Origin: a virus
DNA: 28,501 nt
IMG/VR virus record: IMGVR_UViG_3300017917_000619
Coordinates: 1-28,501 of that record
Direction: 5' to 3' (one strand)
Below, piece by piece: positions 3,765-22,220 of the stretch. Under the pieces are notes generated by a model, which had not been told where the DNA came from, did no database searches, and saw only the letters and a list, made by a program, of their open reading frames with translations. A program made the position numbers and the translations under genes. How positions within the stretch are numbered: position 1 is the stretch's first letter; every line of letters begins with the position of its first letter.

Positions 3765-3772
3765 TATTTATC
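3765..3772 (-). promoter_or_regulatory. T4-like late promoter motif (CCGATAAATA)
   Basis: Minus-strand GATAAATA preceded by CC, about 20 bases upstream of the ATG at 3744. The same CCGATAAATA is found before the 415-aa fibre gene and nearly the same before the giant fibre gene. This makes a phage late promoter likely. Confidence 0.6.
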
Positions 3773-3785
3773 GGAAACAAACTAA

Positions 3786-4481
3786 TTAAAATCCGCCCAG
3801 GTCTACTGTATCACCGCTAGGAGGGTCAAAAGGCCCAAAGTCTACATCAGATCTTTTTAAGATAAAATCTAGAGCGTTGTTGTAAATAGGTTGAAATTCA
3901 CCAAAGTCAAACCCTGCTAAGTAAGGTCCAAATGTTCTTACATCGTAACCCCACACGTTGCCTTGTAGTTCGCCACTGAATGTTGTAGCTGATATTAGGT
4001 TAGCATTTTCAATACTCTTGTTGTTTGCATTTACATTTCCACCTAATATAGGTGCTGTATCTTTAACAACAATGCCAGTTGAATCTAGATCAAGAATAAG
4101 TTGTTGACCATTAACTCTAGTGTTAATGCCCTCACCGCCTACTAGAGATAATGTTTGTCCTCTAGAAATTGAAACAGTACCACTGTCACTAATAATAATG
4201 AGTTGATCTAAACTGTCGGCTGCATTAATTGTAATACTGTTTGCAGTTGATGTAAGTGATACATTTGAACCTGCTAACAATCGTTTGAAACTTTGTTCAC
4301 CATCGATCTTACCTGCATATATGCCTTGTCCTAGAGACCCGGCATTAACAATTACTGTTTCTTCAACAATTCTTAAATCAAGTTCTTGAAAGTTGTCATT
4401 AACTTTTATAAATGCTTCGCGGAGATCGTCGCCAGTTCCGTCATTTGCAATAATACCTACATCAATATAATTTATAGCCAT
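3786..4481 (-). CDS. Fibre-like structural protein with shared anchor motif, 231 aa
   Basis: Residues 5-35 (IDVGIIANDGTGDDLREAF then KVNDNFQEL) are nearly the same as the N-terminus of the 3020-aa giant fibre. This suggests both attach to the same particle site or the same partner. The rest is beta-rich with Val/Ile/Ser/Thr repeats, including a stretch ILGGNVNANNKSIENANLIS typical of phage fibre shafts. The C-terminus is rich in Gly, Asp, Pro and Phe (repeated DFG elements), like the DFG-containing segment of the 893-aa protein. The ribosome site GGAGAT lies 7 bases before the ATG. The gene follows the 415-aa fibre by only 12 bases and is probably cotranscribed with it. Confidence 0.75.
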   Translation of the reverse strand: MAINYIDVGIIANDGTGDDLREAFIKVNDNFQELDLRIVEETVIVNAGSLGQGIYAGKIDGEQSFKRLLAGSNVSLTSTANSITINAADSLDQLIIISDSGTVSISRGQTLSLVGGEGINTRVNGQQLILDLDSTGIVVKDTAPILGGNVNANNKSIENANLISATTFSGELQGNVWGYDVRTFGPYLAGFDFGEFQPIYNNALDFILKRSDVDFGPFDPPSGDTVDLGGF

Positions 4482-5761: not shown

Positions 5762-5769
5762 TATTTATC
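5762..5769 (-). promoter_or_regulatory. T4-like late promoter motif (CCGATAAATA)
   Basis: Minus-strand CCGATAAATA, about 20 bases before the ATG at 5741. It lies directly after the stop of the giant fibre gene, so the 415-aa fibre can be transcribed on its own. Confidence 0.6.
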
Positions 5770-14883: not shown

Positions 14884-14891
14884 TATTTATC
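14884..14891 (-). promoter_or_regulatory. T4-like late promoter motif (ACGATAAATA)
   Basis: Minus-strand ACGATAAATA about 47 bases upstream of the giant fibre ATG. It matches the boxes at 3765 and 5762 in eight or more positions, giving a family-wide CGATAAATA consensus. The leader of about 40 bases includes the ribosome site CGGAGT. Confidence 0.6.
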
Positions 14892-16062: not shown

Positions 16063-16252
16063 GTTTTAATTCGTTCAATAAAAACTCTTTTGGGTCACAC
16101 CAATAAGTTTCAAATACAGGTTCACCAGGGCCCGTTACCATGCTGGTTATTACATCACAGCGTTTAAGCCACAATGATTTGTTAGACAGGTAACAGCGCC
16201 TCGGCCAAAAGCATATTTTTTGTTCCTGAGTTACTCTTCGATTGTTGAACAT
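16058..16252 (-). CDS. Small conserved-looking phage protein, 64 aa (WPRRC...WTGPG type)
   Basis: Basic and aromatic, with C-F-W-P-R-R-C near the N-terminus, KSLWLKR in the middle, and GPGEPVFETYW followed by EFLLNELKR at the end. This pattern recurs in small uncharacterised proteins of marine T4-like phages. The frame can start at an ATG at 16297, which would overlap uvdE by 116 bases. It can also start at an ATG at 16252 (MFNNRRVTQEQK), with an overlap of 71 bases. I chose the shorter form because the family pattern begins there, but neither start has a clear ribosome site. Function is unknown. Confidence 0.65.
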   Translation of the reverse strand: MFNNRRVTQEQKICFWPRRCYLSNKSLWLKRCDVITSMVTGPGEPVFETYWCDPKEFLLNELKR

Positions 16253-17300
16253 CCACTGATCCGTTAGACCCGTGCTTATTCTCTCTGGTATTGGCATAGT
16301 TATATAGATCCAGCGTTGCTAGATTTTTGCATTTAGATTCGACCATAATGTCTGCATAGTCGCGGAATGACAATGCCCAATCATTTACTGCATTATTCCA
16401 CATGTAATCGCTATGAGCTCGCAGTTTGGCTTTCTTGTAGCCCTGGTCTAGTAGCGTCCGAAGATCGGGGCGCTGGTGTCTGGAATGGCCAATAAGACAG
16501 TCTTCCCGTGACACACTATAATGTATGACAGGGCGAACGCCACGCCAACTATCAATAATCCTTTTAAAACGGTCGTCAGTTGCTTCAATATATTCTCCGG
16601 AGTTAATCCAATGGTGATGTATGTCTAGCACCAAAGCGAGATGCTTTGATAGTTCGAGAGAAGCGTCGATTCCCCAGGACATTTCGTCGTTTTCGATAGT
16701 AATACAGTTTCGCGCTTCTGGTGTGAGACGCCCAAGTGCGTCGATGATACCGGCTGGACCTCTACGACCCGCGATGTGGACGTTGATTTTAAAGTCTTGG
16801 AATGATTTGCCGTACCCCATCCAACGGGCCATGTCAACATGATATTCAAACTCCTCTATGCTTCTTTCTACGATCTCATCTGACTCAGATGCAAGAACAG
16901 TAAACTGGCCAGGATGCATAGACAAACGAACGCCAAGCCTACGAGCTGTCTCACCCACAAGGGCAAACTCTCTTTCACAGTAAGCTCTAACATCTGGTAG
17001 TCTCCAATAGTACCCCCAAGTCGGCTCAGTGTACACAGGAAGGCAATCGCTACCAAGTCTAACCATTCTAAGATCTTGTGGTAAGCTACCAACATATTCG
17101 ATCAATCTCCTAAATGAAGCGATGTTGTGTTCCATAATGTCCCACAATCGCTGTTCTGCAACATCACGAGTTTGGCGATTAAGCCACTGAACTGTAGTTG
17201 CTTTAGTATTTAACGGACGCTGAATCTCCTCCAAAAGTTTTTTCTTTTGGGTCTGATCAGGGTGCATGTATTTGCAGGCAAAGCCGATTCGTTTAGTCAT
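16182..17300 (-). CDS. uvdE: UV damage endonuclease (UvdE family), 372 aa
   Basis: UvdE is a metal-dependent TIM-barrel endonuclease that nicks DNA 5' to UV photoproducts such as pyrimidine dimers. Visible signatures are RIGFACKY at the start, SMHPGQF around residues 127-133, NVHIAGR at 173-179, TIENDE at 201-206 and LDIHHHW at 225-231. These provide the His, Glu and Asp metal ligands expected for the family. The bacterial enzymes are around 300 residues; this one has an extra Asn/Ser-rich C-terminal tail of some 40 residues that overlaps the next gene. Translation appears to begin directly at the transcription start of a perfect sigma70 promoter. Early expression for repair of phage or host DNA fits a sunlit habitat. 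Confidence 0.9.
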   Translation of the reverse strand: MTKRIGFACKYMHPDQTQKKKLLEEIQRPLNTKATTVQWLNRQTRDVAEQRLWDIMEHNIASFRRLIEYVGSLPQDLRMVRLGSDCLPVYTEPTWGYYWRLPDVRAYCEREFALVGETARRLGVRLSMHPGQFTVLASESDEIVERSIEEFEYHVDMARWMGYGKSFQDFKINVHIAGRRGPAGIIDALGRLTPEARNCITIENDEMSWGIDASLELSKHLALVLDIHHHWINSGEYIEATDDRFKRIIDSWRGVRPVIHYSVSREDCLIGHSRHQRPDLRTLLDQGYKKAKLRAHSDYMWNNAVNDWALSFRDYADIMVESKCKNLATLDLYNYANTRENKHGSNGSVDVQQSKSNSGTKNMLLAEALLPV

Positions 17301-17335: not shown

Positions 17336-18182
17336 TGACCCAAGGATCTTCACAGTTATGAGGATTTGGATCGCCATGAAAAACACATACGCAACATTCA
17401 ATTCTCGGTTTTACGTCTTCTACGGTTTTGAGTTTTCTATTACCCTTTGTACCACCTAGGGCAAATTCTTTGGTTTTACGAACTTCCCATTTCCAACTTA
17501 ATATCCAACTATCGGGGTAGAGCATTGCCTGTTTGCTTCTAGTTGCTTCGTAGAGCCAATCTTGATCACCGTGCAATCTACGCTGAATGTTTATGCGATC
17601 CTTTTCGAAATCTTCCCAAACATTGTGTAGCTCGCCTGTTTTAAATCTTACAATCGAACTGTTATACTTTTTCCAATTAGGACGCATTGCTCTAGTAAAG
17701 TCTCGTATAGTACACCAATTGTTGGGTTGGTAAGTGAACAGTTTATCAATGTTACCTGCAATAACTACATCAAGGTCCATGTACAGTATAGTGCCGTTAA
17801 TGGGTAAGTTTTTGCTGAACATATAAGGCTTGCACCACCAACCTTGTAGATCTGGAGGCAAAGGAATAGTTTTTATTTTAGGGTCTAATCCTTTAGCATC
17901 GTCAGTTAGGCAAACAAATTCGTAAGAAACTGTGCAGTTGCGTTCAACCATATTGAACAGTTTGTTTACATATTCTGGACCGTATTTTGTGCCGTGCTTT
18001 AAACAGAGAAGATAGTTTTTTGGACTATCTTCTCTGACTTTAAGAACTGGCGTAGGTTCTTGTTGCTCAGTTGCTTCTTTTTCTAAGCGCCTTTGCTCTC
18101 GTATTCTACGCCATTCTTCTTTGGTATATTGACTTTTGTCTACTTTCACCTTAGCCTTCGTAAACTGCCGAATTACCTGCAT
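17319..18182 (-). CDS. Glycosyltransferase-like protein, 287 aa
   Basis: The first 48 residues are a charged, basic helical extension. The rest resembles a GT-A fold nucleotide-sugar transferase of the GT8-like kind. It has an early strand YLLCLKHGTKYG, a central M-D-L-D (residues 135-138, the DxD metal site), then S-S-I-V-R-F (about 175-180) and HGDQDWLYEA (about 204-213). It would transfer a sugar to DNA, lipid or protein in the cytoplasm; acceptor and donor cannot be told. The start is the ATG at 18182 rather than a TTG at 18188. It overlaps queD by 32 bases and has only a weak ribosome site. A perfect 13-base inverted repeat lies at the junction between extension and catalytic domain. Confidence 0.75.
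   Translation of the reverse strand: MQVIRQFTKAKVKVDKSQYTKEEWRRIREQRRLEKEATEQQEPTPVLKVREDSPKNYLLCLKHGTKYGPEYVNKLFNMVERNCTVSYEFVCLTDDAKGLDPKIKTIPLPPDLQGWWCKPYMFSKNLPINGTILYMDLDVVIAGNIDKLFTYQPNNWCTIRDFTRAMRPNWKKYNSSIVRFKTGELHNVWEDFEKDRINIQRRLHGDQDWLYEATRSKQAMLYPDSWILSWKWEVRKTKEFALGGTKGNRKLKTVEDVKPRIECCVCVFHGDPNPHNCEDPWVIDNWR
18004..18036 (-). repeat. Perfect 13-base inverted repeat inside the glycosyltransferase gene
   Basis: Arms at 18004-18016 and 18024-18036 are perfect complements (CAGAGAAGATAGT and ACTATCTTCTCTG) around a 7-base loop. In the mRNA this is a strong hairpin at codons 49-60. It sits exactly where the charged extension meets the catalytic domain. It is not followed by a U tract, so an intrinsic terminator is unlikely. 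Confidence 0.85.
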
Positions 18183-18675
18183 GTTCAAAAACTTCTACGG
18201 AACGTAGTTTAACACCTTGACCTACAGGATAGCGAGCAGTAAACTCTCTTCCGTCAGGATGTGTCCAAGAACGACCTTCTTGATATGCTTCTAGAATCTC
18301 ATTCATTGTGCGATATGCTAGTTCTGCAAATTTTTCGCAGCCAACAGCTTCTACAAGACGTAGGTCCATTACACCGCCTTGATCCTGTAATCCTAGTTTA
18401 GCAAGAGCTTTGAATTTGTCTAAGTGGGGATCGTCAAGTGCAATACAAGTTGTATGATCGAATTGCCATTCGCTCCATTCTTTGAATGCTTTGAGTCCAC
18501 CAAAGTCCATAACCCAGTTACGGTCGTCTAGTGTTTCTGATTCAAAGATTAGTTTGATACCAATTGAGTATCCATGTAGCAACGAGCAATGTGAATGTGT
18601 ACTTCTCCACTGTCTAAAACAGCATGAAAGTCCGCGGTCGTTGCCGTAAGTTTTTGTTGAAAGATATTTTGCCAT
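18151..18675 (-). CDS. queD: QueD / 6-pyruvoyl-tetrahydropterin synthase family protein, 174 aa
   Basis: QueD converts 7,8-dihydroneopterin triphosphate to 6-carboxytetrahydropterin, the second step toward preQ0 and queuosine. Phages use the pathway for 7-deazaguanine modification. Visible features are Cys30 (the catalytic Cys position) and C-S-L-L-H-G-Y at 30-36. Also present are NWVMDFGGLK at 53-62, the Asp73-His74 pair in FDHTT, and a terminal VEVFEHAGNSAVYE with the catalytic Glu around 164. The usual HGH is HGY here, so one zinc ligand is replaced. The start at 18675 has a ribosome site AAGGAGA; an upstream in-frame ATG at 18714 lacks one. No other queuosine gene is in the window, so the phage may feed a host pathway or have further genes elsewhere. 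Confidence 0.85.
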   Translation of the reverse strand: MAKYLSTKTYGNDRGLSCCFRQWRSTHSHCSLLHGYSIGIKLIFESETLDDRNWVMDFGGLKAFKEWSEWQFDHTTCIALDDPHLDKFKALAKLGLQDQGGVMDLRLVEAVGCEKFAELAYRTMNEILEAYQEGRSWTHPDGREFTARYPVGQGVKLRSVEVFEHAGNSAVYEG

Positions 18676-18720
18676 CTCTAGTCTCCTTGTAAAAAGTAGC
18701 AAGTTTGATGACATGCAGAA

Positions 18721-19698: not shown

Positions 19699-19706
19699 TA
19701 TTTATG
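19699..19706 (-). promoter_or_regulatory. Possible late promoter motif (CATAAATA)
   Basis: Minus-strand CATAAATA 24 bases before the start of the two-helix membrane protein gene, in the gap after the fibre-like gene. It is one base from the T4 late consensus TATAAATA. Confidence 0.45.
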
Positions 19707-19735: not shown

Positions 19736-20827
19736 TTATGCAGAGATACTGCCGAATGGTTTCCACATGCCGGGAGTACCTTCGCGCACACAGATCCAAC
19801 CAACAAAGCCACTGGGTTTAGGATCTGCATTCCACACAACGTCACCTTTCTTGTAGGTGCCTGCTGTAGGTTCTTCTGTGCCAACTTCAAACTTTTTGTC
19901 TTGGAATCTTACAGGACCTGCTGTAGTAATATCAGCATCTTCTGTGAAGTTCTTAACACCAACACCTAGCTTGTTCTTTAGTACAACACGATCGTTGAAT
20001 GTTACAACACCGTTGTGAGCTACCTCTATTCTTGTAGTATCATCTGTGACAATTTCAAGAGCAGTTGTAGTCCAAGTACCTAGTTTAAATTTCTTATCGT
20101 CTGTTGGATCAATAACAAATTCGTGATCCCAGCTCATGATGCTGATAGCACCGTTTGGGGAATCTGTACCTAGTCCTAGTCGCTGATTATCTGCGTCCCA
20201 GAACAAGTATTCGTCTATTACAACATTTCCAGCAACACGAAGTTCTTCTAGTGTGCCTATTTTGCGTAAATTACTCTTTACAACACTAGTACCTAGCTCT
20301 GTTTGTGTTAGGACAGGCTGTCCTGAAATAGAGTAGTGTCTGTCTTTGAATAGATCAATTGATTCAGAGCTAAAGAAACGATCCGGTTTTGGTTGTAGCA
20401 CAAACTGTTTAGTGTAACCACCGCCTGGCCATATTAGACCTTTGCCGTAGCCTATGCCGCCATCGTCGGCTTTAAACTCTAAAGGACTTGATCTTTCGTA
20501 TCTTATGTCTGCTGATACTTCGTCAACGTGTAATTTACGAGCATGTATTTCACCCTCAACAGTTAAGTTTCCTTTAACAGTCAACGGATTTGCTATTACA
20601 CCTGTGTATAATACATCAACTCTTACACCGTCATCGGCTACCCGAAGAACAGCTTTTGTAGCAGTATCTTTGATACCAACACTTGCGAAGTTGGTAATCA
20701 TACCGCCGTTGATTTTATCCCCGCTCAGTTCCCTGTCGAGGATCTTGGTTTTTTGAACCTGTTGCTTGGAAATACCATCTATGGCATCACCAAGATTCTT
20801 TAAAATGTCGTGGATGTTTGTGCTCAT
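19736..20827 (-). CDS. Fibre-like virion structural protein, 363 aa
   Basis: The N-terminus (MSTNIHDILKNLGDAIDGIS) is helical, followed by beta-rich, Val/Thr/Asp-rich shaft segments such as NPLTVKGNLTVEGEIHARKL. The last 40 residues (KKGDVVWNADPKPSGFVGW, then TPGMWKPFGSIS) match a C-terminal tip domain widely seen in marine phage fibres and host-recognition proteins. The frame extends to a GTG at 20842, inside the late promoter, but the ATG at 20827 is the likely start. There is no Shine-Dalgarno sequence. The start codon lies within one arm of a perfect 14-base hairpin with a GATAAATA late promoter in and next to its loop, which suggests controlled late translation. Confidence 0.75.
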   Translation of the reverse strand: MSTNIHDILKNLGDAIDGISKQQVQKTKILDRELSGDKINGGMITNFASVGIKDTATKAVLRVADDGVRVDVLYTGVIANPLTVKGNLTVEGEIHARKLHVDEVSADIRYERSSPLEFKADDGGIGYGKGLIWPGGGYTKQFVLQPKPDRFFSSESIDLFKDRHYSISGQPVLTQTELGTSVVKSNLRKIGTLEELRVAGNVVIDEYLFWDADNQRLGLGTDSPNGAISIMSWDHEFVIDPTDDKKFKLGTWTTTALEIVTDDTTRIEVAHNGVVTFNDRVVLKNKLGVGVKNFTEDADITTAGPVRFQDKKFEVGTEEPTAGTYKKGDVVWNADPKPSGFVGWICVREGTPGMWKPFGSISA

Positions 20828-20857
20828 ACATGTATTTATCACGATACATGTATGAGC
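20822..20857 (-). promoter_or_regulatory. Hairpin containing late promoter and start codon (possible translational switch)
   Basis: Perfect 14-base inverted repeat: arms 20822-20835 and 20844-20857, 8-base loop. On the minus strand the loop and second arm contain GATAAATA (20833-20840), and the ATG of the structural gene lies in the second arm. Read-through RNA from the upstream gene would fold and hide the ATG, while RNA starting at the late promoter would lack the first arm. T4 genes e, soc and the I-TevI intron gene use this arrangement. It lies 11 bases after the stop of the 430-aa gene. Confidence 0.7.
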
Positions 20858-20867
20858 GTGTTTTGAA

Positions 20868-22160
20868 TTATGCTACTTTGAGCAATACTGTGTCTGCATT
20901 AATACGTCCGTTCATGGTCGTATCTGTGGTATTGATTTCTTCCAAAAACTTACGCAGAGCAACCTTTCCAGCCGCCTTAAATGCCTTGAGTTGTTCTTCG
21001 GGCTTACGCAAAGTCTTTTGAATACTCTTGGCTTCGTCAAATCCTGTAATCGAAGTGCCTTTGACGCTGAGTCCGCTACCTGCACGACCCATTCCAGTTG
21101 GATCAATGTTAGTGGCTACATACTTGCCCAATTTGCGTGTTTTAACATTGAACACCCAAAGTTCGTTTGCACCCACAATTTCGCTCGGATTAATAGAAGC
21201 CAAACTGTACTTTTGGTCCACTTTCAAGTATTTGAGTTTTGCAATCAATTTATCAGCCGATTTAGGCTTAGGTGTGCGAGCTTTGCGTGTGGCTTTGCTG
21301 GCGTCTACGATAAGCGTACAAGCGTCTACAAGCGTTTCTAGAGCGGCAATGTAGTTAGAGATGTCCTTCTTAGCAAGGTGGCTGTAGGCTTCTTTTAGCT
21401 GTTCTGCATAGTCCGCTTCACGAGCATCCATTTTTTTGAGTTGTGCGGATGTAGGCTGATTTTGGAGTTCGCGGAACTCGTTAAGGGTAGCTTCGTAAAA
21501 CCCCATGAGCTTGCGAGCATGAGCTTGTGTAACACCCATTTTACTAAAGTGCGATTTAAAGTCAAATCCTTTTGGATTGAAGTTCTTTTTGTCTGTTACA
21601 AATCCTTCAAGCCACTCATCAATTTCTTCTGCGGCTTTTTGAGCCTGTTCAGTGATACGTTCTTGAATAGTCGGAATATAGGTATTGGCTTTGATCTTTT
21701 CGTCTTTGGCTTCTTGTACCACAATTGACTTACCGCTTGTAATAGCAGATTCGATTGCTACCTTAATGTGATCAGTGACTGGCTTGACTGGACCAATAGT
21801 TCCAGCAAGACTCTGCCAATATTCGTCGTGTGCTTTATTGTAATCAGGCATGCCACTACGAAGCAGTTTGCAAGAAATAGAAGTTGTAACACTTACGCCT
21901 GCGGCTTTAACACTCTTAATGTCGTCTGCCTTATAACCGTTTTCTTTCATCCAAGCCAATACTTCCGGAAGCAAGTCTGCAGGCTTGTAATTGTCGTAAT
22001 AGAAGTCACGAGCATTGCGAACAGCTCGGTGATAGTCTGCACCGCTCCAAGTTTCCCACCCTTCAAAGCTAGGACCCTTTACTTTGGATCCTTGACGAAC
22101 TGTGGGTGCAAGACGAGCTTTTTTCTTTTTGGGTGCTTTAACTGCGGCCTTTGTAGCCAT
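20868..22160 (-). CDS. Lys/Ala-rich phage protein of unknown function, 430 aa
   Basis: The N-terminus is strongly basic (MATKAAVKAPKKKKARLAP) and could bind nucleic acid. The remainder is mostly helical with a long charged middle (about residues 145-290) and a C-terminal part with GRAGSGLSVKGTSITGF near residue 368. No catalytic motif is recognised. Ribosome site AGGAGTTTCC and a strong sigma70 promoter (22192-22220) precede it, so high early expression is likely. The N-terminus resembles phage DNA-binding or host-takeover proteins in composition only. Comparable proteins are annotated as hypothetical in marine T4-like phages. Confidence 0.75.
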   Translation of the reverse strand: MATKAAVKAPKKKKARLAPTVRQGSKVKGPSFEGWETWSGADYHRAVRNARDFYYDNYKPADLLPEVLAWMKENGYKADDIKSVKAAGVSVTTSISCKLLRSGMPDYNKAHDEYWQSLAGTIGPVKPVTDHIKVAIESAITSGKSIVVQEAKDEKIKANTYIPTIQERITEQAQKAAEEIDEWLEGFVTDKKNFNPKGFDFKSHFSKMGVTQAHARKLMGFYEATLNEFRELQNQPTSAQLKKMDAREADYAEQLKEAYSHLAKKDISNYIAALETLVDACTLIVDASKATRKARTPKPKSADKLIAKLKYLKVDQKYSLASINPSEIVGANELWVFNVKTRKLGKYVATNIDPTGMGRAGSGLSVKGTSITGFDEAKSIQKTLRKPEEQLKAFKAAGKVALRKFLEEINTTDTTMNGRINADTVLLKVA

Positions 22161-22191: not shown

Positions 22192-22220
22192 AGTATATAT
22201 GCTTGCCCAAAAAAAGTCAA
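22192..22220 (-). promoter_or_regulatory. Sigma70 promoter for the 430-aa gene (TTGACT-N17-TATACT)
   Basis: Minus strand TTGACT (22215-22220), 17-base spacer and TATACT (22192-22197), one mismatch in each box. It lies at the stop of the 96-aa gene and gives a leader of about 25-30 bases with an AGGAG ribosome site. Confidence 0.75.

Follow-up and report, generated by a model that had tools for sequence, protein, structure and literature searches.

The start codon of a virion-type gene appears to be governed by a late-only translational switch, in which RNA reading through from the gene upstream would be silenced by a hairpin and a leaderless late RNA would be translated. We put the probability of this reading at roughly three in four. 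The DNA analysed, here called the window, is a stretch of 28,501 nucleotides from an uncultured T4-like phage (IMG/VR record IMGVR_UViG_3300017917_000619, positions 1 to 28,501). Early in infection, host sigma-70 RNA polymerase would transcribe a gene for a 430-aa protein and continue into the virion-type gene. In this long RNA a 14-bp hairpin would pair the AUG and keep the virion-type gene untranslated. Late in infection, the phage late polymerase would initiate from a T4-type box within the hairpin, and the resulting RNA, with the A of the AUG as its 5' end and with neither the 5' arm nor a Shine-Dalgarno sequence, would be translated as a leaderless message. The transcription start, the leaderless translation and the silencing of the long RNA are what we infer from the arrangement of the following elements:

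22192-22220, minus strand: sigma-70-type promoter TTGACT-17-TATACT of the 430-aa gene, 31 nt ahead of its ATG
20868-22160, minus strand: 430-aa gene (phrog_11903, function unknown), directly upstream of the late gene and presumed source of the read-through RNA; stop codon at 20868-20870
20857 to 20822, minus strand: the whole hairpin, 5'-GCTCATACATGTAT CGTGATAA ATACATGTATGAGC-3'
20844-20857, minus strand: 5' arm GCTCATACATGTAT, predicted to be confined to the read-through RNA
20836-20843, minus strand: loop CGTGATAA, 8 nt
20822-20835, minus strand: 3' arm ATACATGTATGAGC, in which the late box ends and the ATG lies
20833-20840, minus strand: T4-type late promoter box GATAAATA (-13 to -6), retained in nearly all orthologous leaders
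20825-20827, minus strand: start codon ATG inside the 3' arm, its A being the predicted +1 of the late transcript
19736-20827, minus strand: 363-aa virion/tail-fibre-like gene under the late promoter, its C-terminus matching tail fibre and head decoration PHROGs

A preliminary description of this DNA had reported a perfect 14-base inverted repeat with an 8-base loop that holds both a late promoter and the ATG of the fibre-like gene, and both observations were confirmed. The arms, of 14 nt each, are complementary at 14 of 14 positions (100%) on either side of the 8-nt loop. The box (20840-20833) and the ATG (20827-20825) both lie within the hairpin, the box having five of its bases in the loop and the other three in the 3' arm. 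This hairpin is the longest perfect spaced inverted repeat of the window and exceeds what is expected by chance: perfect hairpins of at least 13 bp occurred in 0 of 100 dinucleotide shuffles of the window, the longest in the shuffled sequences being 12 bp. RNA folding of the region gave a z of -2.5. Identical arms were present in five further contigs from other metagenomes (L001-L005), where the loop is the variant CTTGATAA; the hairpin is therefore not an assembly artefact. A second perfect hairpin that is likewise beyond chance, with 13 bp and a 7-nt loop, was observed at window 18004-18036 inside a 289-aa ORF, at the onset of a glycosyltransferase domain; L015 retains it only in part.

The silencing of a read-through RNA presupposes transcription from upstream, and the 430-aa gene does appear to be strongly promoted, as had been proposed in the preliminary description. 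A sigma-70 promoter was found at this gene in 71 of the 71 distinct relatives with enough upstream sequence. All of these promoters agree with the sigma-70 consensus at 9 or more of the 12 positions, many at 12/12 and often as TTGACA-17-TATAAT, versus 28% of the composition-matched controls. No late box was found for the 430-aa gene in the window, and a scan of the window returned no terminator-like sites on the minus strand between its promoter and the late gene. Because the promoter is conserved and no terminator intervenes, early RNA should extend into the late gene. The order of the two genes is kept in nearly all relatives. For the 430-aa protein, AlphaFold yielded a model of moderate confidence (pLDDT 69) that had no meaningful PDB match. 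A homolog of it is encoded by Pseudomonas phage PA5oct, a cultured phage without the hairpin whose gene order resembles that of the window: in L349 2197-2265, a AATAAATA box lies over the stop codon of the homolog and is followed by a neck protein gene.

In the T4 numbering, late boxes begin at -13 (PMC2988020). As the box of the window gene begins 13 nt ahead of the A of the ATG, the ATG coincides exactly with the predicted +1, a placement that had been overlooked in the preliminary description. The latter had stated that RNA begun at the late promoter lacks one arm. By the T4 numbering the 5' arm is indeed expected to be absent, with the start corrected to the A of the ATG; the predicted late RNA is also without the loop and without 8 of the 14 nt that make up the 3' arm. 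The spacing and the position of the ATG imply that the late mRNA of the window gene is probably leaderless, with the AUG at +1 and no Shine-Dalgarno sequence. If so, what the hairpin occludes is probably an AUG that has no Shine-Dalgarno sequence.

Among 81 distinct orthologous leaders, extracted from the collected relatives of the late gene, 54 had a box-to-ATG spacing of 13 and one had a spacing of 12, and in the remaining 26 the spacing ranged from 29 to 42; no spacings between 13 and 29 occurred. Leaders with a spacing of 13 have no room for a Shine-Dalgarno sequence past +1, and the longer-spaced leaders mostly carry one. For other genes on the same contigs a spacing of 13 was found at 13 of 62 sites and a spacing of 12 at five. 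The pelagiphage HTVC008M has the spacing of 13 at 8 of its 20 late-box gene starts, none of them with a Shine-Dalgarno-like motif, and T4 has it at 0 of 28. The HTVC008M starts of this type (L225-L232) include those of long genes, of 687 and 629 aa. A search of the open-access literature, the coverage of which is incomplete, returned nothing on late mRNAs of T4-like phages being leaderless. Elsewhere in the window, late boxes are found at:

19699-19706, minus strand: CATAAATA, late box of the gene that follows, whose leader has a Shine-Dalgarno sequence; the contrast case
14884-14891, minus strand: late box GATAAATA, with a leader
5762-5769, minus strand: late box GATAAATA, with a Shine-Dalgarno leader
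3765-3772, minus strand: late box GATAAATA, with a Shine-Dalgarno leader

Folding was computed for both forms of the transcript. Opening of the start region required 20.0 kcal/mol in the long RNA versus 0.1 kcal/mol in the RNA from +1, which corresponds to a predicted closed and a predicted open start, respectively. When the 45 nt upstream of the box were shuffled, opening required 6.5 +/- 2.1 kcal/mol and 0 of 400 shuffles reached 20.0. The occlusion z amounted to 6.4 for the window gene and 7.2 for its sister. An identical scan of T4, in which genes were identified by encoded sequence or length (I-TevII additionally by annotation), gave 3.9 for gene e, 4.4 for I-TevII and 5.3 for a 208-aa gene that is presumably gene 26. 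Gene e, I-TevII and gene 26 are all named as hairpin-controlled in reviews (PMC3014915, PMC2988022). No start-occluding case was found in HTVC008M by the same scan. The wider class with Shine-Dalgarno leaders (mean 10.5 kcal/mol, versus 7.8 for shuffled and 7.6 for swapped upstream sequence) is only slightly above these controls, and occlusion is not claimed beyond the strong cases. In the absence of the hairpin, too, translation of the long RNA might be poor, as it has no Shine-Dalgarno sequence.

The arms were then compared across relatives. In L272, the same phage as L001-L005, the 5' arm is identical at 14 of 14 positions, 42-50% of the fourfold sites differ and the remaining spacer is changed. 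A homologous hairpin of the same layout is present in L269 and L273, which are sisters by the upstream gene (SH-aLRT 99). In their stem two pairs are changed on both sides, from A-U to G-C and from U-A to G-U, ten pairs are invariant and one is broken; sliding the partners destroys the pairing. The covariation rests on four sequences and two pairs, and 32 of 500 shuffles score equally high, so that it is supportive and not conclusive. In the tree of the upstream gene, a clade of ten members surrounds the window (SH-aLRT 97), each of which has either a start-occluding structure, of 14 bp, 12 bp, 13-15 bp or 9 bp, or an intrinsic terminator. The 5' arm is the promoter itself in L032 and L277 (15-bp helix) and in L276 (13-bp helix). 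L285 has a 9-bp hairpin with the layout of the window ahead of a different gene, and in L295 the helix extends into the coding sequence of the upstream gene. Taken singly, L276 and L295 are weak cases, since 20 and 19 of 400 shuffles, respectively, are as high. A canonical intrinsic terminator occupies the site of the window hairpin in L274, between the 430-aa gene and the late box, and another is present at the same junction in the distant L215. L218, which has only a partial upstream gene and is absent from the tree, has a very long stem around the box and the ATG that runs into the coding region.

Most other relatives have an upstream TGA or TAA that overlaps the late box, and no stem; a clear hairpin is also absent from three relatives that do have a spacer (L168, L181 and L330). 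Retention of the promoter with loss of the pairing, which the preliminary description had regarded as evidence against the switch, is thus literally found in many relatives. There the overlap of the upstream stop with the box leaves no intergenic room for a stable hairpin, and ribosomes ending the upstream gene would be expected to melt a stem. The conserved arms, the paired changes and the recurring hairpins and terminators support the view that the pairing is under selection. We lean slightly towards the broader view that leaderless late mRNA, set by a box at -13, is a standing mode of translation in a large uncultured T4-like group and in pelagiphages, and is accompanied by hairpins or terminators, evolved more than once, that close the bare AUG behind early promoters. 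Two viral contigs with perfect matches to the arm layout, L101 and L103, are regarded as unproven, as the expected place on that strand is not the start of any long gene. At 3790-3830, L103 has a perfect 15-bp inverted repeat over the ATG of a gene with a phage lysozyme-like product, and a late-box-like motif on the opposite strand.

The hairpin could alternatively belong to the upstream message, marking or protecting the 3' end of the early 430-aa mRNA or being cut by RNase III in the read-through RNA, in which case the hiding of the AUG would be a by-product. It begins 10 nt beyond that gene's stop codon, and a stem of 14 uninterrupted base pairs can serve RNase III as a substrate. However, a 3'-end stem needs no coding start as its 3' arm. 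The start codon is enclosed in every strong hairpin lineage, even where the promoter acts as 5' arm (L276, L032, L277) or where the stem involves the coding region (L218), and this explanation is therefore considered unlikely.

A 10-bp palindrome, ATACATGTAT, is found in each arm, and its two copies lie 18 bp apart around the box. This would suit an operator, or an element of DNA structure, at the late promoter, which would provide two flanking protein sites or form a cruciform affecting promoter opening. Yet the repeat reaches past the palindromes to GCTC/GAGC, the GAGC being set by the start and codon 2, and many orthologs have the same box and no repeat. As L269 and L273 keep the pairing without the palindromes, this reading was rejected as very improbable. 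Template switching characteristically leaves perfect inverted copies, and the arms are such copies. A recent template switch might have copied the 3' arm upstream and left a functionless relic, or the repeat might be due to chance, which would agree with the lack of the hairpin in most orthologs. It is nevertheless hard to credit, as the arm outlasted change at about half of the fourfold sites, paired changes are seen in the sister pair, and further terminators and start-occluding hairpins recur at this position. A transcription terminator, acting on minus-strand read-through or on plus-strand antisense RNA, was rejected as extremely improbable, because the transcribed strand has no U run past the stem (ACAAACATCC follows instead) and the plus-strand terminator-like site called by the scan, with the tail TTTTGAATTA, loses this tail in L272, L269 and L273; chance alone would give about four sites of this kind.

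The logic of the late-only switch that is favoured here is known from T4 e, soc, 49 and I-TevI, which are under hairpin/late-promoter control (PMC3014915, PMC2988022); e, soc and I-TevI had been put forward as precedents in the preliminary description, and the reviews bear this out and add 49. With an early promoter, no terminator, the box in the hairpin and the ATG in the 3' arm, the anatomy fits a switch of the gene-e/I-TevI type. Together with the comparison of relatives it supports the mechanism first proposed, in which read-through RNA would be shut and late RNA translatable. As in these T4 genes, a helix in the early read-through RNA would cover the initiation region (PMC3014915), and, again as in these genes, the late promoter in or beside the 5' strand of the helix would give rise to RNA without that strand. 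Whereas T4 late RNAs retain a leader with a Shine-Dalgarno sequence, the window gene would yield a leaderless late RNA and have the AUG alone hidden, and it is of virion type, not one for lysis or homing. The position of the late promoter also leaves late transcripts of I-TevII, I-TevIII, segB and Aeh1 mobE without one arm (PMC2988022). The hairpins of these homing endonuclease genes, however, hide a Shine-Dalgarno sequence and guard mobile genes, whereas the window gene is a conserved late phage gene.

Three features are new: a geometry that predicts a leaderless message, a gene of virion type and, within one group of phages, insulating elements of different kinds that recur at a single junction. 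An example of a leaderless phage mRNA is lambda cI, which has its AUG at the 5' end and no Shine-Dalgarno sequence, as is predicted for the window. In contrast to cI, leaderlessness would here result from a T4-type late box at exactly -13, recur across several late genes and be combined with a silencing hairpin. The T4 gene-e switch would then reach beyond a few genes of coliphages into a large group of uncultured phages, and do so in a minimal form, in which a single short segment would combine the promoter, the transcription start, the start codon and the silencer. From the spacing of exactly 13 nt, late translation is predicted to be leaderless in widespread phages of aquatic habitats, among them HTVC008M, a cultured pelagiphage. 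Published work that tried to predict the middle and late promoters of pelagimyophages was unsuccessful (PMC7029224).

A gp55-like late sigma factor (phrog_12791) is encoded in G002, the large contig that bears the L273 hairpin, and a gp55-like factor is also present in HTVC008M. It was not detected in four other relative contigs, which are possibly fragments, as the window itself is. The 363-aa product of the late gene showed short-stretch matches, mainly C-terminal, to tail-fibre and virion structural families, and annotated phages, searched at the nucleotide level, yielded no more than a short fibre match at the C-terminus. A full ortholog of this gene was found in no isolate, and AlphaFold gave a poor model of its product (pLDDT 38). 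Located downstream of the late gene in the window are a UvdE-type UV endonuclease gene and a QueD-like gene (16182-17300 and 18151-18714).
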